A stretch of DNA of 24,250 nucleotides. It comes from a virus. The DNA lies in the IMG/VR virus record IMGVR_UViG_3300043466_001378, positions 1-24,250 of that record, one strand, 5' to 3'. Each line of letters opens with the position of its first letter. Within the stretch, counting starts at the first letter, position 1. Below the pieces are notes generated by a model. That model ran no database searches. It had not been told where the DNA came from and worked only from the letters and a program-made list of their open reading frames with translations. Positions 2,957 to 20,637 of the stretch are shown here, piece after piece. Position numbers and translations under genes: made by a program.

Positions 2957-3973
2957 ATGAAAGTTTCTTTCACCTCTGCCCCAGAACATATGATAACACT
3001 TAAAGATGAAGTAAAAGATCTGGTTGGATATAGCCATGCTTCATACCAAATAATGAATGCATTCGAAAGATTTGGATTTACTACTTCTATTAAAGATAAA
3101 AGTGCGCCATTAGCGATATCCATGGGCTTTCCTACTGACTACACCTTTGCCCCGAATCAATATAAAATAGGATATACAGCCTGGGAATCTACCCAGTTAA
3201 GGGACGGCTGGCTAAGGAAAATGAAGTCTTGCGACGAAATATGGGCAACCTCAACATGGACTGCAAACGTATTTAAAGAAACATTGAATAGGGAAAATAT
3301 ACATGTTTATCCACACGGTATTGATATCGATTGGAAGCCTATAAGACGCAAAAATAAAAAACCATTCAGATTTCTTCATGTCGGAGAGCCACAGATAAGA
3401 AAAAATGGACAATTAGTGGTAGACACGTTCATTGAACTTTTCGGAAATAATCCAGACTATGAACTTGTTCTTAAATGTAGCGGAATGAATAGTACACGTT
3501 TATATGAGAATAGTGGATCTATTATAGGAAGCCCCGACTCTAAATATAAAAATATTAATATTCTTACGATTCCATTAACTCATTCACAGATGATTGAACT
3601 TTATTATAAGACACATGCACTTATCTATCCTACCGCTGGCGAGGGCTTTGGATTTATCCCATTGCAAGCATTGGCAACTGGTATGCCAACTATTTCTACT
3701 TATCAATGGGCTGAGTATCAAAAATATATTACTATCCCCCTTGAAGCGGAACTTGGTCCAAGCATCCATGAAGAACTCCATCCTGGACTTACTTATAATG
3801 TAGATAAAGATTTTCTTAAAAAGTCAATGATAGATATGGTAGAGAACTATGAAAAATATCAGAAAGAAGCATATAAAAATTCATTCCATGTCCATATGGA
3901 ATATGATTGGGACCGTGTGACCGAACCAACAGCAAAACATCTAAAAAATATTTTCAAAAGTCGCGGTTTTTGA
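2957..3973 (+). CDS. GT4-like glycosyltransferase, 338 aa
   Basis: The two-Rossmann GT-B pattern of CAZy family GT4 is visible: a first domain ending at YPHGIDIDW (118-126), then FRFLHVGEPQIRKNGQLVVD (138-156, sugar-nucleotide domain start) and AGEGFGFIPLQALATGMP (227-244), the equivalent of the EX7E donor-binding motif. The second Glu is Gln (E229, Q237), an unusual but known kind of variation. There is no membrane segment or signal peptide. Substrate unknown; phage GT4 enzymes glycosylate modified DNA bases, virion proteins or host surface sugars. It stands alone between the divergent promoter region and nrdJ. Starts without a ribosome-binding site, consistent with leaderless expression. 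Confidence 0.85.
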   Translation: MKVSFTSAPEHMITLKDEVKDLVGYSHASYQIMNAFERFGFTTSIKDKSAPLAISMGFPTDYTFAPNQYKIGYTAWESTQLRDGWLRKMKSCDEIWATSTWTANVFKETLNRENIHVYPHGIDIDWKPIRRKNKKPFRFLHVGEPQIRKNGQLVVDTFIELFGNNPDYELVLKCSGMNSTRLYENSGSIIGSPDSKYKNINILTIPLTHSQMIELYYKTHALIYPTAGEGFGFIPLQALATGMPTISTYQWAEYQKYITIPLEAELGPSIHEELHPGLTYNVDKDFLKKSMIDMVENYEKYQKEAYKNSFHVHMEYDWDRVTEPTAKHLKNIFKSRGF

Positions 3974-7375: not shown

Positions 7376-7717
7376 ATGGAAGATGTAAACTTTAAAGTTG
7401 TTCAGGGTGATACTTTCAGCATTCAAGTCACTTACACAAATCCTAGTGGAACACCAATAAATTTAACTAATTATTCTGCTAGGATGGATGTAAGGAATGA
7501 ACCCGCTGGAAAAGTTTTGTGTGCATCAATCACAAATGGAAACGGTATAACTATTAATGGATCAACTGGAGTTTTATCAATAACATTTAGCCCAGCACAA
7601 ACAAGAAGATTTACTACTCCTTCTGCTGCCTACCAACTACAAATTGCTAGTATTGGTGGGCAATACACAACAATACTTAAAGGATTCCTATCTGTTTATC
7701 CTGCGGTGGTACGATGA
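7376..7717 (+). CDS. Small beta-sandwich tail/baseplate protein, 113 aa
   Basis: The pattern FKVVQGDTFSIQVTYTNPSG, PINLTNYSARMDVR and the closing ILKGFLSVYP is that of small all-beta domains common at the start of phage tail-fibre and baseplate operons (BppU N-terminal-like). Probable role: connector or structural protein of the tail appendage. The ribosome-binding site AAAGAGGTG serves either ATG 7376 or the preceding TTG 7373 (better spacing); the longer TTG start at 7355 is unlikely because it precedes the ribosome-binding site. Its stop overlaps the next gene (ATGA). Confidence 0.7.
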   Translation: MEDVNFKVVQGDTFSIQVTYTNPSGTPINLTNYSARMDVRNEPAGKVLCASITNGNGITINGSTGVLSITFSPAQTRRFTTPSAAYQLQIASIGGQYTTILKGFLSVYPAVVR

Positions 7718-8031
7718 CCAATAATGTAAATGTACAATTAACAGAAAATAATGTAATTGTAGATGCTGTTGGCGTTCAAGGACCACAGGGTACTCAGGGT
7801 CCACAAGGCCCACAGGGTCCACAAGGAGATCCAGGTATAGGATCTTATGTTCATACACAGGGAACTGCATCAAGTACATGGACAATTAATCATAATTTAG
7901 GATTTTTCCCTAACGTTGAAATCGTTGACTCTGCAGGAACTTCTGTAATTGGAAATTATCAGTTTACTAATGTAAATACAGTTGTTGCTACATTTACAGG
8001 CGCTTTCGCTGGAAAGGCATATTTATCATGA
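7714..8031 (+). CDS. Collagen-like tail protein, 105 aa
   Basis: After a beta-rich start (1-19) come eight Gly-X-Y triplets (G20 to G41, mostly GPQ), which should form a short collagen-type trimeric stalk. A small C-terminal domain follows (WTINHNLGFFPNVEIVDSAG, 61-80, to AGKAYLS), which is a recurrent phage-fibre tip domain. Only P40 is in the Y position that collagen prolyl hydroxylases prefer. The start overlaps the previous stop (ATGA). It probably trimerises as a short fibre or a fibre connector. Confidence 0.75.
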   Translation: MTNNVNVQLTENNVIVDAVGVQGPQGTQGPQGPQGPQGDPGIGSYVHTQGTASSTWTINHNLGFFPNVEIVDSAGTSVIGNYQFTNVNTVVATFTGAFAGKAYLS

Positions 8032-11847: not shown

Positions 11848-12384
11848 GTGGCAGATAAGAATTTTAGGGTAAAAAATGCCCTAGAACTTGGAACTGGAAC
11901 AATTACAGTAGGTGCGAATACTGTAACACTACCTTCATCTACAGATACATTAGTTGGAAGAACTACGTCAGATACTCTAACTAATAAAACATTTCAAAGT
12001 CCAGAAGAAATTGTTACTGTTTCAGCAACAGCCGCTACCGGAACAATTAACTTTGATGTAATTACACAATCAGTTTTATATTACACAAGTAATGCTACTG
12101 CTAACTGGACATTAAATATTAGAGGAAACTCTTCAACTACCTTAAACTCTATATTGCCTGTTGGGTCTGCAATTACTTTAACATTTTTAGTTACACAAGG
12201 TGCTACAGCATATTATCAAACAGCATTGCAAATAGATGGCAGTTCTATAACTCCAGAATGGCAAGGCGGATCAGCACCAACTGTAGGTAATCCATCAGGA
12301 ATAGATGCATATTCATTTACTATTATAAAAACAGCGTCTACACCAACATATGTTGTACTAGGCTCATTAACAGGGTTTGCATAA
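11848..12384 (+). CDS. Tail fibre-associated protein, 178 aa
   Basis: Starts at GTG 11848 after GGGGAGAGTGAACTAG. The N-terminus (ADKNFRVKNALELGTGTITV) and DTLVGRTTSDTLTNKTFQSP (about 33-52) are typical of phage fibre proteins; the rest is an all-beta domain (about 55-178) with the shape of a short tip. A similar opening occurs in fibre genes of marine and freshwater phages. Probably a shorter fibre or tip component; receptor unknown. Its stop and the next start share one base (TAATG). Confidence 0.7.
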   Translation: MADKNFRVKNALELGTGTITVGANTVTLPSSTDTLVGRTTSDTLTNKTFQSPEEIVTVSATAATGTINFDVITQSVLYYTSNATANWTLNIRGNSSTTLNSILPVGSAITLTFLVTQGATAYYQTALQIDGSSITPEWQGGSAPTVGNPSGIDAYSFTIIKTASTPTYVVLGSLTGFA

Positions 12385-13451
12385 TGCCGTTAATATCATC
12401 TTTATCTGCTGGCGCAAAAGCATTTGGTATCTATGCATTGTTAGCATTATCATCTGTTGTAGATCTATTTACTAGAAGTGATAATGCTACAAGTTTAGGC
12501 TCAGTTAAAGGACAAAATTGGAAGGTTTGGCGAGGTGTCTGGGGGATTGCTGCAAATAAGGCGTCTTCTTCTAGTTCTGCAGCGACTAACGCACTTGCTA
12601 CTCTTAGGTTTACCAAGACAGATGTGACAGTAAGTATCTCTGGCGCAGATCCAGGAACTGGAGCATCATTCTGGGTAACAGATGCAGATAACTGGTATGC
12701 ATCTGTTTATACTCAGAATCAGGTATGTCAAACATGTTCTAACTGTAATGCCTGGAATACACCTAATTGTGTTGGATGGGCAGTAGGAAATTGTGCTAAC
12801 GGAACGGTATGTTGTGGAGGATTTAATACCTCCACCTGTACTGGCAATTCTTATACCCTAGGACCGTGCATTACTTGGTCATTAGGGTCATGTATCACTT
12901 GGACTCTTGGAAACTGTACTGTATGGAATAGTGCAAATTCTGGCAACAGAGCGCCACCTTATGGATTCTGCTTCTCTCCATCTAGAAATCCATCTACATG
13001 TAACCAAAGAAATCCATCTACATGTAACCAAAGAAATCCATCTACATGTAACCAATGGAATGCCTCTAATTGTAATGCATTCTGCTGCAATGGAGCGTTT
13101 GAAAACTGGTCGCCATATTGCACATCGTTTTCATTTTCATGTAGTTCATTCTTTACTTTCTCATGCAATTGTACTACAGAGCATAGAATTTCATTAATTA
13201 GTTCTATACTAGGGTCTGTCAGTACTTTAAGTAATAATTTATTTAGCAGCGCGATTCAATCATTTAAAACAATTTTATCTGGAAATCAAGCAACTATTTC
13301 TGCATATTCAACAACAACATATAATAGTCAGATTGGGAACTCTGTTGTTACAAATATTACTTCTCCTACTAAATATACTCAGCATGGTATAATTAAGTCA
13401 ACTTCTAATTATTCACAGGGTTCTGCTATAGACGAATTTGGAGTAAGTTGA
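12384..13451 (+). CDS. Cysteine-rich tail protein with octad Cys repeats, 355 aa
   Basis: Residues 28-110 (LFTRSDNATSLG through NWKVWRGVWGIAANKA to ADNWYASVY) resemble a concanavalin/LamG-like fold common in phage and secreted proteins. At 115-263 there is an insertion with 22 Cys, many exactly eight residues apart (121, 129, 137; 144, 152; 162, 170, 178; 206, 214, 222, 230; 253, 261), often as CxxW. Three near-identical NPSTCNQR units occur at 202-225. The C-terminal part (264-355) is Ser/Thr-rich and resumes the beta pattern. There is no signal peptide. The Cys array could bind metals or form a disulphide ladder after release from the cell; function otherwise unknown. It sits among fibre genes, so an external virion location is likely. 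Confidence 0.7.
   Translation: MPLISSLSAGAKAFGIYALLALSSVVDLFTRSDNATSLGSVKGQNWKVWRGVWGIAANKASSSSSAATNALATLRFTKTDVTVSISGADPGTGASFWVTDADNWYASVYTQNQVCQTCSNCNAWNTPNCVGWAVGNCANGTVCCGGFNTSTCTGNSYTLGPCITWSLGSCITWTLGNCTVWNSANSGNRAPPYGFCFSPSRNPSTCNQRNPSTCNQRNPSTCNQWNASNCNAFCCNGAFENWSPYCTSFSFSCSSFFTFSCNCTTEHRISLISSILGSVSTLSNNLFSSAIQSFKTILSGNQATISAYSTTTYNSQIGNSVVTNITSPTKYTQHGIIKSTSNYSQGSAIDEFGVS
12986..13054 (+). repeat. 24-bp in-frame tandem repeat, about 2.9 copies
   Basis: Exact copies begin at 12986, 13010 and 13034 (the last is 21 bases). Each encodes one NPSTCNQR-type octad. The unit is a multiple of three, so copy-number change would keep the frame. Confidence 0.85.
13385..13393 (+). promoter_or_regulatory. 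Extended -10 motif inside the Cys-rich gene
   Basis: TGGTATAATTAA, identical to the motif at 11806 and 17263, lies about 60 bp before the 97-aa gene. It could drive the downstream cassette independently. It also encodes amino acids, so chance is possible. Confidence 0.35.
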
Positions 13452-13744
13452 TGAAAAAAAGAGATACATATAGATCATATTTAATTAAAAGATTACTAGG
13501 ACTAGATAATACCTACTATAAGCCAAATCCAAAATTTAGTAGAGCAGGAGAAGCCCCAACGCACCTTGCTCTCGTTATTGATGGAATTGTTGAGGATATA
13601 ATACATTGTGATGAAAGATTCGGAGACATTCTTTTAAGCAATCCTAAAATAATTGATCTAGGGAAAAACTTTAGTAATGTAAATATATTAGATACATATG
13701 ATGAAAATTCTAATACATTCTATTCAGAGAGTAAAAATGTCTGA
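13451..13744 (+). CDS. Small protein with LALVIDG domain, 97 aa
   Basis: ATG 13451 shares one base with the upstream stop (TGATG). After a basic N-terminus (1-25) the segment HLALVIDGIVEDIIHCDERFGDILLSNPKIIDLG (about 38-71) and the closing YDENSNTFY form a small beta-alpha domain that is paralogous to the product of 13964-14173. Unknown family, but proteins with this pattern are common beside phage structural genes. A structural accessory role is possible. Confidence 0.65.
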   Translation: MKKRDTYRSYLIKRLLGLDNTYYKPNPKFSRAGEAPTHLALVIDGIVEDIIHCDERFGDILLSNPKIIDLGKNFSNVNILDTYDENSNTFYSESKNV

Positions 13745-13967
13745 AAATAAAAATGTTAGACCATGGGACTTATTTAATAAAAAAATGGGTCGTGTCAATT
13801 CAGAAATATATAAAAATAGAATAAGTATATGTTCAAGTTGTCCAGAATTAATAAAAACTACATTCCAATGTAAGAAGTGTGGATGTTTTATGAAACAAAA
13901 AGTCAAACTAGCAGATGCTAGTTGTCCACTAAATAAGTGGGAAAATATAGATAAAGGAGGTGTATGA
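13737..13967 (+). CDS. Zinc-ribbon protein, 76 aa (DUF6171-like)
   Basis: Cys pattern C32xxC35, C45xxC48xC50 and C63 in the order SICSSCPEL, FQCKKCGCFMKQKVKLADASCPLNKW matches a small phage/bacterial zinc-binding family (I recall DUF6171) with the conserved CxxCGCFM and CPLxKW. Start at ATG 13737 overlaps the previous stop by eight bases (ATGTCTGA); the longer open frame upstream is not used. It sits between two paralogous small proteins. Role unknown; its position among appendage genes suggests a virion assembly or modification partner. Confidence 0.75.
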   Translation: MSENKNVRPWDLFNKKMGRVNSEIYKNRISICSSCPELIKTTFQCKKCGCFMKQKVKLADASCPLNKWENIDKGGV

Positions 13968-14173
13968 AGGTGATAGAAAAAGTATTGGCCTTTGTATTAG
14001 ATGGTAGTGTACAAAGAGTTATGAGGTTAGATGAAGAAACTGCTGCAATAATGCTTTCTCATCCAACAGTTGTTGATATTACTAACGTCCAGGTCACAGA
14101 ATCATGGAATTATGATGCTAATAAAGGATTCTATATAGAAATAGATGGCTCAGAGTTAGTAGTTCCAACATGA
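13964..14173 (+). CDS. Small protein paralogous to the 97-aa product, 69 aa
   Basis: VLAFVLDGSVQRVMRLDEETAAIMLSHPTVVDI (7-39) matches LALVIDG...CDERFGDILLSNPKIIDL of the 97-aa protein, and WNYDANKGFY (48-57) matches its YDENSNTFY end. ATGA overlap with the zinc-ribbon stop and an AGGAGGTG site just upstream define the start. Probably duplicated from the same ancestor; function unknown. Confidence 0.65.
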   Translation: MKVIEKVLAFVLDGSVQRVMRLDEETAAIMLSHPTVVDITNVQVTESWNYDANKGFYIEIDGSELVVPT

Positions 14174-14922
14174 TCAGGAGAATAAGATGGGTTCCAAATG
14201 ATGAATATGCATATAAGCATATAGATCCTCCCATTCCTGCAAAACAAGCAATGCCGCAATGGTATCGGCTTGGGGAAATGGTTATTTCTAAAAATACTGG
14301 TAAAGTAGCCAATGTTTCAGATAATGACATATCGGGGGGTCTTAAATCATGCCTGCCCTTCCTTGACGCTATGATTTCTGGCTATTTTATAACTTCATGG
14401 GAAGATTTCTATATTAAAACTACTGATAAAGTAGAAGAATTTTATTCAGTAATAAAAAATGAATATACAGATAAATATGAGAAGTATACCCCCCCTAATC
14501 ATCCAATGATAGATGAAAGGGTGGGTGATATAGGACATACAATACCAAGGCCAGAAGGACATTGTAAAAATCATATGATTTTTAGTGGACAATGGGGGGC
14601 ACGCCTACCAAAAGGCTGGAGTCTTCTTCTAACTCATCCACTTAATAGATTTGATCTCCCATTTGCAACAACATCTGGGATTATAGATTCAGATGAGTGG
14701 TGGGCAGGAGGCAACATACCATTTTTCTTTAAAGAGAACTTTGAAGGAATAATCCCCAAGGGAACCCCGTTTGCACAACTGATACCAATAAAAAGAAGTT
14801 CTTGGACTTCTTATACTAGTGTATTAAGTGTTAGTAGAAATACATATCTTGCTGATAAGGCAAGATCTGTTCCAATAGGATGGTATAAGAAGAATATTTG
14901 GACAAAAAAGAAATATGATTAG
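14170..14922 (+). CDS. DUF6065-like protein with dUTPase-fold pattern, 250 aa
   Basis: The C-terminal half reads LPKGWSLLLTHPLNR (146-160), GIIDSD (170-175) and IPKGTPFAQLIPIKR (195-209), which parallels dUTPase/dCTP deaminase motifs PKG...R, GVIDxD and KGxRIAQLI in order and spacing. The N-terminal half (DPPIPAKQAMPQWYR, CLPFLDAMISGYFI) is shared with the 245-aa paralogue at 15900. The catalytic residues of dUTPase are not evident, so I infer a beta-clip fold rather than activity. Overlaps both neighbours (ATGA upstream, ATGATTAG downstream). Role unknown; located beside glycosylation enzymes. Confidence 0.65.
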   Translation: MIRRIRWVPNDEYAYKHIDPPIPAKQAMPQWYRLGEMVISKNTGKVANVSDNDISGGLKSCLPFLDAMISGYFITSWEDFYIKTTDKVEEFYSVIKNEYTDKYEKYTPPNHPMIDERVGDIGHTIPRPEGHCKNHMIFSGQWGARLPKGWSLLLTHPLNRFDLPFATTSGIIDSDEWWAGGNIPFFFKENFEGIIPKGTPFAQLIPIKRSSWTSYTSVLSVSRNTYLADKARSVPIGWYKKNIWTKKKYD

Positions 14923-15907
14923 TTTAGATAAAAAAATATTTGTATCTTGTCCCACATTAGATGATACAGAATATCCAATAAGTATAAGCAATGCCTTTAA
15001 TTCTGCTAAAAATCCTAGTAGAATATTTTTTGGTACAGCGTATTCTACAGATTTTAAAAATAAAAAAAAATATGAAATATTAAAAAAAAGTATTAATGGG
15101 TATAAAGAAAATATTAGAATAAATTTACTAAATTATAGTAAAGATATTGGTGTCGGATACGGTAGACTTTCATCAATGAATTTATATAATAATGAAGATT
15201 ATGTTCTTCAGGTTGATGCTCATTGTTTATGGAAGCAAGACTGGGATGAAATACTTATATCTTTATATGAAGATGCTAAAAAAGAAATAAATTATGAAAA
15301 AATATTATTAACTGGATATATGCCATATTATAAATATTATGATATTAATGATAGAAAAATAGTAAATACATGGCACTTAAGATATCCATTTATGACTGGC
15401 GACACACTATTGCATTTTGGTTATCCATGGAATGTTCTTCCAGGGTGGAGAGATACAGAAATGTATAATGTATATCCTGAGATTAAAGATAAATTTTTAC
15501 CAACACCTAAAATAAGTGCAGGATTTAATTTTGGCGGACCGGAATTTGCAAAAGAGTATAATAAAATTATTCCATTCCCCTTTAGATTTTTTGAAGAAGA
15601 ACTTATAATGACAATAGAACTTCTGAGTCTAGGCTTTTGTCCAACTTATATTAATGGAGATATACCAATAGCACACTTATATTCTTCAGATATAAATAAA
15701 TTTGGAGGAGATAGATTAAAAACAAAAGAAATGTCTGATAAAGAAGCAGAAAAAGTATTAAATAGAATTATTGAATATATAAATAATAATAAGAATAAAG
15801 TAAAAATATTTGAAGAATATTCAATGATAAGAGATTTTTTTAATCCAGATCCAGATTCAAAATTTAAAGTACCTAAAAATTTTTATAAAAAGGAAACTCA
15901 TGAGTAA
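14915..15907 (+). CDS. GT60-like (Skp1 GlcNAc-transferase family, PF11397) glycosyltransferase, 330 aa
   Basis: The order of motifs matches the GlcNAc-transferase family that includes eukaryotic Skp1 Gnt1: KIFVSCPTLDDTEYPISI (7-24), GVGYGRLSSMNLYNNEDYVL (79-98), then QVDAH (99-103), the DxH donor/metal site normally seen as QIDSH, WDEILISL, AGFNFGGPEFAKE (202-214), RFFEEE (224-229), and IAHLY (252-256). This GT-A enzyme would use a UDP-sugar and, in known members, modifies hydroxyproline. The gene is noticeably more AT-rich than its neighbours, suggesting separate acquisition. It overlaps both neighbours by eight bases and is two genes upstream of a prolyl-hydroxylase-like oxygenase. Sugar and acceptor here are unknown. 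Confidence 0.8.
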   Translation: MISLDKKIFVSCPTLDDTEYPISISNAFNSAKNPSRIFFGTAYSTDFKNKKKYEILKKSINGYKENIRINLLNYSKDIGVGYGRLSSMNLYNNEDYVLQVDAHCLWKQDWDEILISLYEDAKKEINYEKILLTGYMPYYKYYDINDRKIVNTWHLRYPFMTGDTLLHFGYPWNVLPGWRDTEMYNVYPEIKDKFLPTPKISAGFNFGGPEFAKEYNKIIPFPFRFFEEELIMTIELLSLGFCPTYINGDIPIAHLYSSDINKFGGDRLKTKEMSDKEAEKVLNRIIEYINNNKNKVKIFEEYSMIRDFFNPDPDSKFKVPKNFYKKETHE

Positions 15908-16637
15908 AAATATAGAATTTATGGCAGTAGAAAATTCTGGTCAAGGGTGTGTCAAGCCTATACCTGCTACAAAAGAAATCCCAGAGTGGTATAGAAAACT
16001 TCCCGCACTACGTTTTTTAAGAAGAAATAGTACAAAACAAGACTTTACAGTTAAAAAGTGTATTCCTATATTAGATGCTTTTACTACTGGCTACTATCTA
16101 GTTACTACATATGATTCTGATTGGTATATAGATTCTGAAGGAAATTATGAGTGTAAGTGTGATGCAAAACTAGTTGAAGGTGGAAGTAAGCCAATCACAA
16201 TGCATCCATGGGAGCAAATCAGAGATATAGAACTAGGTGGAATATATGATGAATATGCATATAAGTTTAGCAATCCATATTTAATAAAAACTCCTCCTGG
16301 ATATAGTTGTATTTTTACGCATCCATTCAATCAAATTTCTCCTTTTCTAACACTTACTGGAGTAGTAGATACCGATATGCATCCATTAGCAGTACAGTTC
16401 CCATTCCTAATGTTAAAAAACTGGGAAGGTAGAATTAAGGCCGGAACTCCAATTGTGCAAATTATTCCATTCAAACGCGATGAGTGGAACCTTGACAATA
16501 AAGAGCCAACTACTAAAGATAGACAAATAAGTTCTCAGAGGCACCAGGAATTTGAATCATATAGATATGATGATTCTGGGAATCCAATAGGTGGACAGTA
16601 TAAAAAGAAATATAGAGAAAAGAAAAGATACTTATAG
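15900..16637 (+). CDS. DUF6065-like protein, paralogue of the 250-aa product, 245 aa
   Basis: PIPATKEIPEWYR (20-32), KKCIPILDAFTTGYYL (52-67), PPGYSCIFTHPFNQ (132-145), GVVDTD (154-159) and KAGTPIVQIIPFKRDEW (180-196) align with the 250-aa protein throughout. The same dUTPase-like motif order is visible. The ATGAGTAA start overlaps the GT60 stop. The C-terminal 45 residues are basic and rich in Lys, Tyr and Gly (GGQYKKKYREKKRYL). It may bind the same partner as its paralogue; function unknown. Confidence 0.65.
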   Translation: MSKNIEFMAVENSGQGCVKPIPATKEIPEWYRKLPALRFLRRNSTKQDFTVKKCIPILDAFTTGYYLVTTYDSDWYIDSEGNYECKCDAKLVEGGSKPITMHPWEQIRDIELGGIYDEYAYKFSNPYLIKTPPGYSCIFTHPFNQISPFLTLTGVVDTDMHPLAVQFPFLMLKNWEGRIKAGTPIVQIIPFKRDEWNLDNKEPTTKDRQISSQRHQEFESYRYDDSGNPIGGQYKKKYREKKRYL

Positions 16638-16645
16638 GAGTTATA

Positions 16646-17227
16646 ATGGCAATTGAAATATTCCCAGGCGCAGTACAGTTTGATTTCCCAGAATCAGTTG
16701 CGAGTCAAGCAATAAAGGATGCAGAAAAGTCTAAGTTCCCATGGATGGATTCCGCCATAGGATTTGGAGATGTTGCAAAGCATATAAGATCTAGTAAGTC
16801 ATTTGGCCTAGATAGCCTAGACATATCCAAAGAAAAAATACGACCAATAATTTATGATTGTATTAAAAAATATTGTAATTACTATGATGTAGATGTACTA
16901 GCAGATGAGGGCTTGAGCCTATTAAAGTATGAATCATATGACAAATATGAGTTTCATGTTGATGAGGGTCCAGGGAAAAATAGGATTGTTTCATGTCTAA
17001 TCTATTTAAATCCAGGTGAATATGAAGGCGGAGGCACCACATTTAAACACTTTAACTATACAATAAATCCATTAGCACCATCACTAGTACTATTCCCATC
17101 TAATTATCCATATTTACATGCTGCTGATCCAGTTTCCAAAGGCAAAAAGTATATTGTAGTTACATGGATGACTGGAGATAATGGATTATCAATGGATCAT
17201 GGCCCTGATTGCACATGTGGAAGATAG
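16646..17227 (+). CDS. 2OG-Fe(II) oxygenase, prolyl-4-hydroxylase-like, 193 aa
   Basis: The double-stranded beta-helix core carries the iron triad H104-x-D106 (EFHVDEG) and H158 (YLHAADPV), and K168 ten residues later to bind 2-oxoglutarate (GKKYIVVTW). CLIYLNPGEYEGGGTTF (117-133) is the typical prolyl-4-hydroxylase segment. Such enzymes hydroxylate proline or other side chains using O2 and 2-oxoglutarate. Good ribosome-binding site (TAGGAGTTATA). It ends the overlapping modification cassette. The target is unknown; nearby fibres include the collagen-like GPQ protein and the NPSTC repeats. It ends with a short Cys pair (CTCGR). Confidence 0.85.
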   Translation: MAIEIFPGAVQFDFPESVASQAIKDAEKSKFPWMDSAIGFGDVAKHIRSSKSFGLDSLDISKEKIRPIIYDCIKKYCNYYDVDVLADEGLSLLKYESYDKYEFHVDEGPGKNRIVSCLIYLNPGEYEGGGTTFKHFNYTINPLAPSLVLFPSNYPYLHAADPVSKGKKYIVVTWMTGDNGLSMDHGPDCTCGR

Positions 17228-17277: not shown

Positions 17278-20200
17278 ATGTCCTATTCTCAAATTGTGCT
17301 ATCAGACCGTCCAGCGGGTTACTGGGACTCCCCAAAATTTGGGGTAGAAAACTCCCTTACCAGTAATCAATCATCGTTTGAGACTAATACCTCTGGATGG
17401 TCAGCAGTTGATAGCGATACAACAATTGCTAGAATAACTAGTGATTCATATATTGGCACCGCCTGCTTACAGGCAACTGCAAATGCAACTGCATCAGATT
17501 CTATTGCAATAAGAGTATCTTCTGGAAGTAGAATTAGAGTATATCCAGGAAGAAGATATACAATGATTGCGCGAGTAAAAAGAGGGTCTGGATCAAGGAA
17601 TGCAGCCATTAGAATTGAATACTACACTACTCAGAGTGGATCAACATTATCAGAACCAGTAAGAGTAGGAGAAGAATTTACTCTTTCTAGTGATGAGTGG
17701 ACAACAATTTATCATACAGATCTTATTTATACCCCAAACGATAATGACTATTATGTTTCATGGGGCATCGTAAGTACGAACTCTGGATCAATTGGAGATA
17801 CCCTACTAATTGATTATGTTCAATTTTATGAAGGAACGACATTTCAATTAGAAGATGAAGTTTCTAATAACAACATCAATATATATGAAGATGTTCATGA
17901 AAATGCAAAGCCGATAGTATTTGGAACTAACGGTGCATTAAAAGTATATCAAAACTCCTTTGCAGTTATTGAAAATGAATATAAATTATTTATTTCTGGA
18001 TCAGAGTTAAAGCCAGCCACGCTAGATTTTTGGTTCACCATTGATAAACCTCCATCATATAGACATTCTCTTGTAAAAATTGGAACATTCCTAGATTGCT
18101 ATATTGAAAGGGATAGGATATATATAGAATCTGGTGGCAAAAAAGAGAGCATACAGGTAGTTGACTGGACCTCTCAGCACTACCTTGCCATTTCATATTT
18201 CAATAGAAGCATAGACCTCTATTTAGATAATAGAAGCCCAGTATCAATTTCTTTAGATGAAAACTTTAGATTTAATGATATTGCTGATGCAAACTCAATT
18301 CCTAGCATAGTTATTGGTCCATCATCTGAGCCAAGGAATTTAATAGTCAATCCATCCATAGAAAATAATACTGATGGATGGACAGCGATAGGCTCTGGTA
18401 CTTCAATATCATTAATTAATACAGATAGTTTTTCTGGGTCTGCCTGCCTACAAGTAACAAAGGCTGCAGTATCTAATTCTGGAATGTCAGCAACAAATAG
18501 AATTAGGGTAGAGTCCTATAAGAAATATCAAGTATCTGCATATATTAAAATACCTTCTGGTGATGATTCATCTACCATTACTATAAAGTGTAATGAATAT
18601 GATTCAATTTCTTCATCTACTCCAATAAGTCAGCATACAGAATCTATTCTTATAGATGATTCAGATGGATGGACAAGGATTAGCAATAGTTTTACTCCGC
18701 ACGCAAGAACAAAGTATATTGACTTCTCAATATATCAAGCATCCTCTGGCTCTGCAGGAGAAAAGTTCCTTATTGATGCAATTCTTTTAGAAAAGTCAGA
18801 ACATTTATTACCATGGGATGAAAAAACTGCTAACTATGAGCCATTACTAGTATCTGGAATTGGTATTTATCCATATCAAATAGATAGGAATAAAATACAA
18901 AAAAGACTGAATTATGCTACCAATGATCTATCAGACAATCTTGCAATCAGGTACGGCGGTGATAGATTTAATACGGACTATTCTGATTCATATCAAGTAA
19001 ATGGCATAGATGTAACAACATTAGCAAAAAATAATAAACTTGATATTCAAAATTTAGTTTATACAAATAACGGATTATACATGCCTAAAGTTAGTCCTAT
19101 TCTAGTAGAGTCAGGGCTTGCTGGCGGATCTTTTAATTTAGAAGACGTTGGCATATCTTTTACAGATGATTGCCATGCTGTAGTAGAAAATATTAATACT
19201 TATTTTAACCCATCACTTTCTACAGTTAGACTTCAAGTTGAATTAGACGCTCTGAATGGAGATGGAGTAGTTCTTTCCTTGATGCCAATAACTGGATACT
19301 ATGCGTTTATAGTAAAAAAGGAGTCTGATAAAATTGTTGGACAACTTCTAAAAGAGTTTAATGATCAAACCCCTGAAGAATTATTTAGTAGTATGACGCT
19401 GGGCGATGGAGAATACAATGTAGCATTAAACTTCTCAGATAGAACATTATCCGTTCTTATTGGCGGGGAAGAGTTTAATGATCTAGAGTTCCCATCAATA
19501 GAAAATATATCATCTATGTATATTGGTAATTTACCAGGACTAAGTGCTGGATTCTCAGACTATATAAGAAACTTTTGCATAGACAATTATACAGATTTTA
19601 ATGATATAGATTGGTATGATCCTGGCATTTATATGGCAAGATTCAATGGAAACCTTAATGTGTCTCAAAAGGCTGTATTTAATTATGATGCTACAGAATT
19701 GACTTCATCAAATAATTCAATAATCACCTTTAATAGTGGCGCTAAATTAAACATTATAGTCAATGATGAGTTTATTGAAGAATCTTTAAATATACCTGGA
19801 TTTAACTACACGGCACCAGAAAATGTTAATATTTCTGTATCTGCTGTAACAGAAGATTCTTTAAATGATAGTGTTAAAATTAATAATTTATATCTATCTA
19901 CAATAGATTCATCATCTATATCATCATCACTATCTAATTTTGAGATATTGCAAAACTTAGATGGATCATCAAACAAGATTAATGATCCATATGTTATAAA
20001 AACTAATAACACTAATATATTAGCGCATGACGATAATCTAGGGCTGAAGTTTATTCCTAGCGTATCTAGTGGATGTAAGATTTCTGCAAAATCTTTAGAC
20101 TACGGCTGCTTTGAATTAGTATTTAAAATAAATAAATATCCAAATGAATCAGAAGAATATACAATATTTGATCTATCTGGAGTAACAAGTACTAATCTAG

Positions 20201-20637
20201 TGTTTTCATCTGGCTCCCTAGTTAAAAATGGAGATTATGATTTATACATAGATGGATCAATAGTCTCTAATCTTAGTAATATAGATATTTTAGTTGGAGA
20301 AATCTATCATGTATTTGTAGTTTTTGATGCAGCAATAGATAATGATATCCATATTGGAAACAATAAATCTGTTCTTAATACTCTAAATGGATCAATCGGC
20401 AAGATTTGTATTTATGAGAATACCCCAGCCAATATTGCTTCATATATATCAGATAAATATCAAGACTTAATTGGTAAAATAACAAAAGTTGTTTCTGGTG
20501 GAACAATAAATGTTAAAGATACTCCTACATCACAGTCATACTATAGAGATGATAATGGAGAGTATTTTGAAATGTTGGACTTACCAAAGGTAAAATTTGT
20601 CACATCTTCGTGGGAAGAAATAGACTTCACTAACTAA
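17278..20637 (+). CDS. Large tail protein with carbohydrate-binding-like modules, 1119 aa
   Basis: Starts YSQIVLSDRPAGYWD, a typical opening of LamG-bearing phage tail proteins. Residues 30-188 and 352-510 are two copies of a CBM4/9-like module (each with N/S-S-F/I-E-x-N-T-x-GW, a central RxRVxxxxxYxxxAxxK/I strand and a closing LIDxxxxxE). Between them (about 215-348) is a LamG-like jelly roll; further beta-rich LamG-like regions follow (about 640-780 and 960-1080). No catalytic residues are seen. Likely a minor tail or adhesion protein binding host surface glycans. Starts directly after a strong promoter, apparently leaderless. Longest gene in the window. Confidence 0.78.
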   Translation: MSYSQIVLSDRPAGYWDSPKFGVENSLTSNQSSFETNTSGWSAVDSDTTIARITSDSYIGTACLQATANATASDSIAIRVSSGSRIRVYPGRRYTMIARVKRGSGSRNAAIRIEYYTTQSGSTLSEPVRVGEEFTLSSDEWTTIYHTDLIYTPNDNDYYVSWGIVSTNSGSIGDTLLIDYVQFYEGTTFQLEDEVSNNNINIYEDVHENAKPIVFGTNGALKVYQNSFAVIENEYKLFISGSELKPATLDFWFTIDKPPSYRHSLVKIGTFLDCYIERDRIYIESGGKKESIQVVDWTSQHYLAISYFNRSIDLYLDNRSPVSISLDENFRFNDIADANSIPSIVIGPSSEPRNLIVNPSIENNTDGWTAIGSGTSISLINTDSFSGSACLQVTKAAVSNSGMSATNRIRVESYKKYQVSAYIKIPSGDDSSTITIKCNEYDSISSSTPISQHTESILIDDSDGWTRISNSFTPHARTKYIDFSIYQASSGSAGEKFLIDAILLEKSEHLLPWDEKTANYEPLLVSGIGIYPYQIDRNKIQKRLNYATNDLSDNLAIRYGGDRFNTDYSDSYQVNGIDVTTLAKNNKLDIQNLVYTNNGLYMPKVSPILVESGLAGGSFNLEDVGISFTDDCHAVVENINTYFNPSLSTVRLQVELDALNGDGVVLSLMPITGYYAFIVKKESDKIVGQLLKEFNDQTPEELFSSMTLGDGEYNVALNFSDRTLSVLIGGEEFNDLEFPSIENISSMYIGNLPGLSAGFSDYIRNFCIDNYTDFNDIDWYDPGIYMARFNGNLNVSQKAVFNYDATELTSSNNSIITFNSGAKLNIIVNDEFIEESLNIPGFNYTAPENVNISVSAVTEDSLNDSVKINNLYLSTIDSSSISSSLSNFEILQNLDGSSNKINDPYVIKTNNTNILAHDDNLGLKFIPSVSSGCKISAKSLDYGCFELVFKINKYPNESEEYTIFDLSGVTSTNLVFSSGSLVKNGDYDLYIDGSIVSNLSNIDILVGEIYHVFVVFDAAIDNDIHIGNNKSVLNTLNGSIGKICIYENTPANIASYISDKYQDLIGKITKVVSGGTINVKDTPTSQSYYRDDNGEYFEMLDLPKVKFVTSSWEEIDFTN

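Follow-up and report, generated by a model that had tools for sequence, protein, structure and literature searches.

Whether a bacterial virus can hydroxylate proteins of its own virion and also attach sugars to them is the question raised by two nearby genes in a 24-kb fragment from an uncultured virus (IMG/VR record IMGVR_UViG_3300043466_001378, positions 1 to 24,250, hereafter the window). One gene resembles the GT60 glycosyltransferases and the other the prolyl 4-hydroxylases (P4Hs), and from this combination the original prediction proposed a pathway in which fibre proteins are first hydroxylated on proline and then glycosylated. Modification of virion proteins is the likeliest role of the two enzymes, because the glycosyltransferase (GT) belongs with the protein-modifying GT60/GT27 enzymes, its companion oxygenase resembles P4Hs, and repeat-rich fibre genes adjoin members of both families in many phages. 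To the more specific proposal, that the cassette at 13448-17227 modifies one or more of the phage's own fibre proteins, with the oxygenase hydroxylating and the GT60 enzyme glycosylating as separable modules, we give an even chance.

It is clear that the glycosyltransferase was correctly assigned. Pfam family PF11397, 'Glycosyltransferase (GlcNAc)' (GlcNAc, N-acetylglucosamine), matches it at E=2.4e-20 (73.8 bits; cut-off, 21 bits), as it does all 30 of the aligned relatives from viral contigs, and GT2 (PF00535) falls far below (E=0.026, 14.9 bits). In the alignment of these relatives D101 and H103 are invariant and H254 is kept in at least 90%, and the active-site letters D101-x-H103, E229 and H254 are all intact in the window enzyme; we take D101/H103 to be the metal motif and H254 the second histidine, as in the polypeptide N-acetylgalactosamine (GalNAc) transferases. 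These transferases are also the structures nearest to an AlphaFold2 model of the enzyme (predicted local distance difference test, pLDDT, 85.7; Z ~20, root-mean-square deviation ~3.5-4 over 260-275 residues), with LARGE1 (Z 17) and chondroitin polymerase (Z 16) ranked lower, and the sole PDB sequence matched by the family profile is Toxoplasma GalNAc-T3, whose DAH motif and later histidine align with D101-x-H103 and H254. By family and predicted fold the enzyme is of the polypeptide-modifying GT60/GT27 type. Family membership does not identify the acceptor, because eukaryotic members use both Ser/Thr (mucin-type) and hydroxyproline: among the polypeptide alpha-GlcNAc-transferases, Gnt1 of Dictyostelium and Toxoplasma acts on Skp1 hydroxyproline, and the Dictyostelium Golgi and T. 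cruzi enzymes act on mucin Thr/Ser (PMC8724618). The phage enzyme shares with them the PF11397 family, a GT27-like predicted fold and the DxH motif; it differs in belonging to a bacterial virus, in adjoining fibre genes and in occurring in many phages without an oxygenase partner. Thr/Ser is a more likely acceptor for it than hydroxyproline.

The second enzyme is an intact P4H-like oxygenase, as had been claimed, for which specificity towards peptidyl proline is putative, the one pointer to it being that genes of its relatives are linked to Pro-rich repeats. It matches PF13640 (E=5.3e-13) and phrog_61, and its nearest solved relatives are bacterial P4Hs (E=1.5e-7 with the single sequence, 1.7e-17 with the family profile), followed in the profile ranking by a PKHD-type enzyme and another P4H (3.8e-10), P3H (7e-9), LH3 (1e-7) and PHD2 (1e-7). 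The iron triad H104-x-D106 and H158 is invariant in the oxygenase alignment, and K168, the basic 2-oxoglutarate (2OG)-binding residue ten positions past the second histidine, is present. With the P4Hs of Bacillus anthracis (PDB 3itq, 5hv0) and the chlorovirus PBCV-1 (Eriksson et al. 1999, cited in PMC9301287) it shares the 2OG-Fe(II) fold and active-site residues, whereas the phage oxygenases form a divergent subfamily, often in multi-gene arrays, and their substrates are putative. The PBCV-1 enzyme, as reported in that citing paper, provides a precedent for a virus-encoded P4H acting on viral proteins, and the same paper terms the use of P4H by viruses cryptic; earlier proposals for phage 2OG-Fe(II) oxygenases concerned DNA repair or nitrogen/2OG metabolism (PMC3037559).

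Whether the two enzymes constitute a pair is a separate matter. From position 12384 the genes run CYS, U98, U89, U69, D1, GT, D2, oxygenase and a 1119-aa tail protein, and the GT/oxygenase region lies within the fibre genes, flanked by endolysin and portal. The GT open reading frame (ORF) shares 8 nt with D1 and 8 nt with D2, and the oxygenase starts 8 nt past the end of D2. The earlier description of one overlapping cassette needs correcting in that GT and oxygenase do not overlap each other and are separated by D2. Neither D2 nor its paralogue D1, which precedes GT, figured in that description. The order CYS-U-U89-U-D1-(GT)-D2-OX (OX, oxygenase) is conserved among sister phages, of which three (L089, L090 and L095; L numbers are our handles for contigs and loci) keep D1, D2 and the oxygenase with no GT between the D genes, L095 carrying a GT60 gene elsewhere in its contig. 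Sister L012 has CYS, D, D, GT and U89 and no PF13640 gene across its 39.7-kb contig, L002 has a GT60 gene with its sole oxygenase far off, and no PF13640 oxygenase was found in ten GT60 contigs, including contigs of 229 and 297 kb. Contigs are fragments and single absences are weak, but the overall pattern is not: in sister phages GT60 is an optional insert in a cassette whose base set is D1, D2 and the oxygenase.

The tie between GT60 and oxygenase is loose, yet it is real and above chance. Clustering at 60% identity of the results of a search with the GT alone gave 28 GT60 lineages. In seven of them GT60 has an oxygenase no more than 1 kb away, where genes drawn at random from the same contigs would give 2.0 (3/5000 permutations; gene calls in the permutation tests were mechanical ORFs). 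The GT60 tree needs 6-8 changes to account for this neighbourhood, which must therefore have arisen repeatedly. The ten GT60 contigs without PF13640, which may themselves be fragments, and the sisters whose cassette has the oxygenase but no GT60 depart from the co-occurrence expected of an obligate, Skp1-type pathway of hydroxylase and GT60. This suggests that hydroxylation and glycosylation are usually separate steps, performed by independently assorting modules and not by one pathway.

Both families are, on the other hand, statistically linked to repeat-rich fibre genes. A protein with (TP)n, (AP)n, (TPPPP)n or (PPPGTT)n repeats lies within 2 kb of GT60 in 9/28 lineages where 2.9 are expected (1/10000 permutations), a test that has less power (p ~0.06) when clusters are merged at 40% identity to leave 12. 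The repeat scans covered at least 120 stretches each, and locus counts from them are among the matches listed. GT60 was found within 3 kb at 6/110 (TP)5 loci and 0/97 (PE)5 control loci (p=0.02). At PFFPPFFPFF loci an oxygenase lies within 3 kb in 83/117 cases against 1/97 controls (Fisher 3e-30), and a D gene is present in 75/117 against 1/97 (p=7e-26); many of these loci are related, their best-scoring oxygenases forming 16 clusters at 70% identity, and the control loci stem from different phages, so that phage type may explain part of the contrast. When genes were permuted within PFF loci, oxygenase adjacency at 1 kb was seen in 14/14 cluster representatives, with 6.9 expected.

The oxygenase tree points in the same direction. 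Among 37 enzymes, that of the window clusters with those linked to CYS in its sisters (support 98/93). The TP-type oxygenases (TP-U89-OX, GT60 being present or absent) make up a clade of their own (98/100) that includes L058, where the fibre type was not seen, and most PFF-linked oxygenases form a separate group (81/84); the subfamilies sort by neighbouring repeat type. Besides the CYS cassette, sister phages have farther along a (PFF)n gene with an OX-OX-D-D-OX array behind it, and the most economical interpretation is that every set of oxygenases acts on the repeat protein next to it. In L013 a cassette of this kind accompanies a (TP)n protein in the order fibre-U69-U89-OX-GT60. The (PFFPPFF)n protein type is widespread in phages, has an FN3-like start and often a Cys-rich end, and occurs at ~117 of the loci listed among L090 and L218-L336, plus L089:16338-17243. 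Arrays of D genes (dUTPase fold) and as many as 11 P4H-like oxygenases come after it, and phage oxygenases are likely to have one of their major substrate systems here. By eye, the C-terminal half of L089:16338-17243, after the PFF repeat, looks Hint/intein-like, but no family match confirmed this. Seven contigs (L033, L053, L117, L151, L170, L186, L194) have GT60 next to a (Thr-Pro)n protein and lack a PF13640 oxygenase; they are candidates for mucin-like O-glycosylation by phages.

Within the window, CYS is by position the most likely substrate. It corresponds to the Cys-repeat fibre gene that had been noted beside the cassette, and its neighbours and appearance suggest that it is a tail or virion component. 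In sister phages both of its ends are conserved and the Cys-rich middle is variable, this hypervariable insert consisting of 8-9-residue repeats of the C-N-x-[FW]-N-x-x-N-C type. A link between GT presence and change in these repeats was rejected, CYS being alike in GT-plus and GT-minus sisters. The collagen-like GPQ stalk that was also put forward does exist at 7714-8031, but it is short (8 triplets), lies ~7 kb upstream of the cassette and has proline nearly always at X, with a single X-Pro-Gly, the wrong position for a collagen-type P4H; it was judged a weak target.

Several observations weigh against the proposed modification of fibres by the cassette, and against CYS as its target. In some sisters (L010) proline is scarce in the CYS insert, so the hydroxylated CYS residue may not be proline. 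The window-type oxygenase is linked to CYS in one phage lineage only, and a scan of viral contigs for tandem CNxxNPxxC repeats gave no match, so that this linkage is not replicable outside the lineage. Over all PFF loci, the oxygenase arrays are so long that adjacency at 100-500 nt does not exceed chance, and in the tree part of the PFF-array oxygenases sit on long branches away from the main PFF group.

If fibre proteins are modified by separable modules, the oxygenase would hydroxylate side chains of a neighbouring fibre protein, most likely CYS with its NPSTCNQR repeats, and the GT60 enzyme would use a UDP-sugar to attach a sugar, probably GlcNAc or another N-acetylhexosamine, to side-chain hydroxyls, with Thr/Ser as the default acceptor; in some phages, perhaps in this one, the hydroxylated residue might accept a sugar as well. 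The stricter proposal, in which a fibre protein first acquires 4-hydroxyproline from the oxygenase and GT60 then attaches GlcNAc there, as happens on Skp1 of protists, draws on the presence of both enzyme types within one cassette, on their repeatedly acquired adjacency, on L013 and L067, in which (TP/AP)n repeat, U89, OX and GT60 recall plant repeats glycosylated on hydroxyproline, and on the P4H-GlcNAc-transferase fusions of protists (PMC8724618). No GT60-oxygenase fusion was found among the GT matches, however, and the independent assortment of the two genes together with the proline-poor insert of L010 makes this sequence of events improbable. Of the earlier claim, the modification of virion proteins is supported as the likeliest role; an obligatory hydroxyproline-glycosylation pathway is unsupported. 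By analogy with plant extensins and arabinogalactan proteins or with mucins, repeat-directed hydroxylation and glycosylation of fibres might extend, in some lineages and possibly here, to glycosylation of phage-made hydroxyproline, an idea we regard as unlikely; phages like L013 and L067 are the most plausible place for such a possible bond between hydroxyproline and sugar.

The two enzymes might instead act on the host surface (a glycan, teichoic acid or similar) or on a small molecule during infection, for example to exclude other phages, as GT clusters of cyanophages have been interpreted (PMC7824862); a GT4-like gene in the window and epimerases by some GT60 loci would fit. A peptide-type family and fold, a cassette set among structural genes and an oxygenase subfamily that tracks the repeat type of the adjoining fibre leave this with a small chance. 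A further alternative is that D proteins, oxygenase and GT build a hypermodified base in the manner of base J, in favour of which are the predicted dUTPase fold of D1/D2 and the weak Tet_JBP matches (E ~0.05-0.07) of some array oxygenases in sister phages; yet for the window oxygenase a search up to E=1 gave no Tet_JBP match and its matches are to P4H, the GT belongs to the peptide-modifying kind, the genes lie in the fibre region, and as many as 11 oxygenases occur at one PFF locus, which together render nucleotide or DNA modification very improbable.

Modification of the phage's own fibres has partial parallels. Mimivirus encodes a lysyl hydroxylase/glucosyltransferase for viral collagen (Luther et al. 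2011, as cited in PMC8968730), and the likeness lies in virus-encoded hydroxylation and glycosylation of a viral protein, proposed here for the window; it is a giant virus of amoebae with a bifunctional enzyme and hydroxylysine, whereas the phage cassette has separate genes and a different GT family. Mycobacteriophages, which are likewise of the actinobacterial type and use phage GTs, carry glycans on capsid and tail proteins; they differ in that the sites are capsid and tail-tube C-termini, and the summary in PMC12619734 of this work (Freeman et al. 2023) does not mention a P4H-like partner. In the literature searched, consisting of open papers, no report of phage hydroxyproline was found. 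The 2OG-Fe(II) oxygenases are common host-like genes of aquatic phages with an unsettled role, and their sorting by repeat type, with the strong (PFF)n tie, yields the testable claim that phage oxygenases hydroxylate fibre repeats. A GT60 enzyme in a phage would mean that polypeptide O-glycosylation of the protist kind also takes place in bacteria, which would affect how hosts are recognised and how stable the fibres are.

As regards distribution, three distant GT matches were obtained in a phage genome collection, and the Xanthomonas and Stenotrophomonas loci inspected had no annotated oxygenase or fibre neighbour; a narrow-pattern scan for GT60 in bacterial genomes matched one metagenome-assembled genome. 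The gene order of the window (ThyX, glycosyltransferase, ribonucleotide reductase, endolysin, long tail gene, portal, protease) resembles that of Stanwilliamsviridae such as Streptomyces phage Phredrick. Features are collected in Table 1.

Table 1. Features of the window discussed in the text, with the basis for each (HMM, hidden Markov model).
Feature	Coordinates	Strand	Basis
GT60-family (PF11397) polypeptide-type glycosyltransferase, 330 aa; DxH motif D101/H103, E229, H254	14915..15907	+	Pfam, AlphaFold2 model, PDB profile
P4H-like 2OG-Fe(II) oxygenase, 193 aa; H104/D106/H158/K168	16646..17227	+	PF13640, phrog_61, P4H best in PDB
D2, 245 aa, phrog_7084/DUF6065, predicted dUTPase (beta-clip) fold	15900..16637	+	phrog_7084 2.1e-39, PF19541 1.1e-7, model
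D1, paralogue of D2	14170..14922	+	phrog_7084 4e-37; 27% identity to D2
U89, DUF6171/phrog_13558, small, Cys-rich, probably zinc-binding	13698..13967	+	PF19668 1.1e-7
U98, small protein related to U69	13448..13744	+	HMM matches overlapping with those of U69 across sister phages
U69, small protein related to U98	13964..14173	+	HMM matches overlapping with those of U98, sister phages
CYS, fibre-like, hypervariable Cys-rich insert including (NPSTCNQR) repeats	12384..13451	+	22 Cys; conserved upstream of cassette in sisters
Collagen-like protein, 8 GXY triplets, Pro in X	7714..8031	+	Tail-fibre and collagen-like minor tail PHROG matches
1119-aa tail protein, CBM_4_9 carbohydrate-binding domains, directly after oxygenase	17278..20637	+	PF02018 2.9e-21; minor tail PHROG
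GT4-like gene	2957-3973		Pfam search

In searches of Pfam and PHROGs no family matched U98 or U69, and no RNA families were found in the window, the first 1000 nt of which have a GC content of 49% against ~37% elsewhere and hold no recognisable gene or RNA family. A U89-type (DUF6171) gene stands directly upstream of GT60 or an oxygenase in many phage loci, and its domain is fused to the GT60 N-terminus in L046 (930-2132) and L057.

Phrog_7084/DUF6065, the family of D1 and D2, carries no function label in PHROGs or Pfam, yet a dUTPase (beta-clip) fold is predicted for it: the model (pLDDT 87.3) retrieves dUTPases as all of the 50 PDB matches listed (best Z 9.4, Foldseek probability 1.00). The Pfam dUTPase family is sub-threshold (E=0.11), the D family profile has no match among PDB sequences, and a motif-3-like G[VI][VI]D.D can be seen by eye; dUTPase activity does not follow from the fold assigned to D1/D2. 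dUTPases are trimeric, and one speculation is that D1/D2 might bind or position the substrate, as a dUTPase trimer would suit a trimeric fibre. Solitary D homologues occur in HF1/HF2-type haloviruses and cyanophages; in the halophilic archaeal viruses L005 and L006 (HSTV-2, HF2) a lone phrog_7084 gene lies near thymidylate synthase or ribonucleotide reductase genes, and in aquatic phages D genes accompany P4H-like oxygenases.

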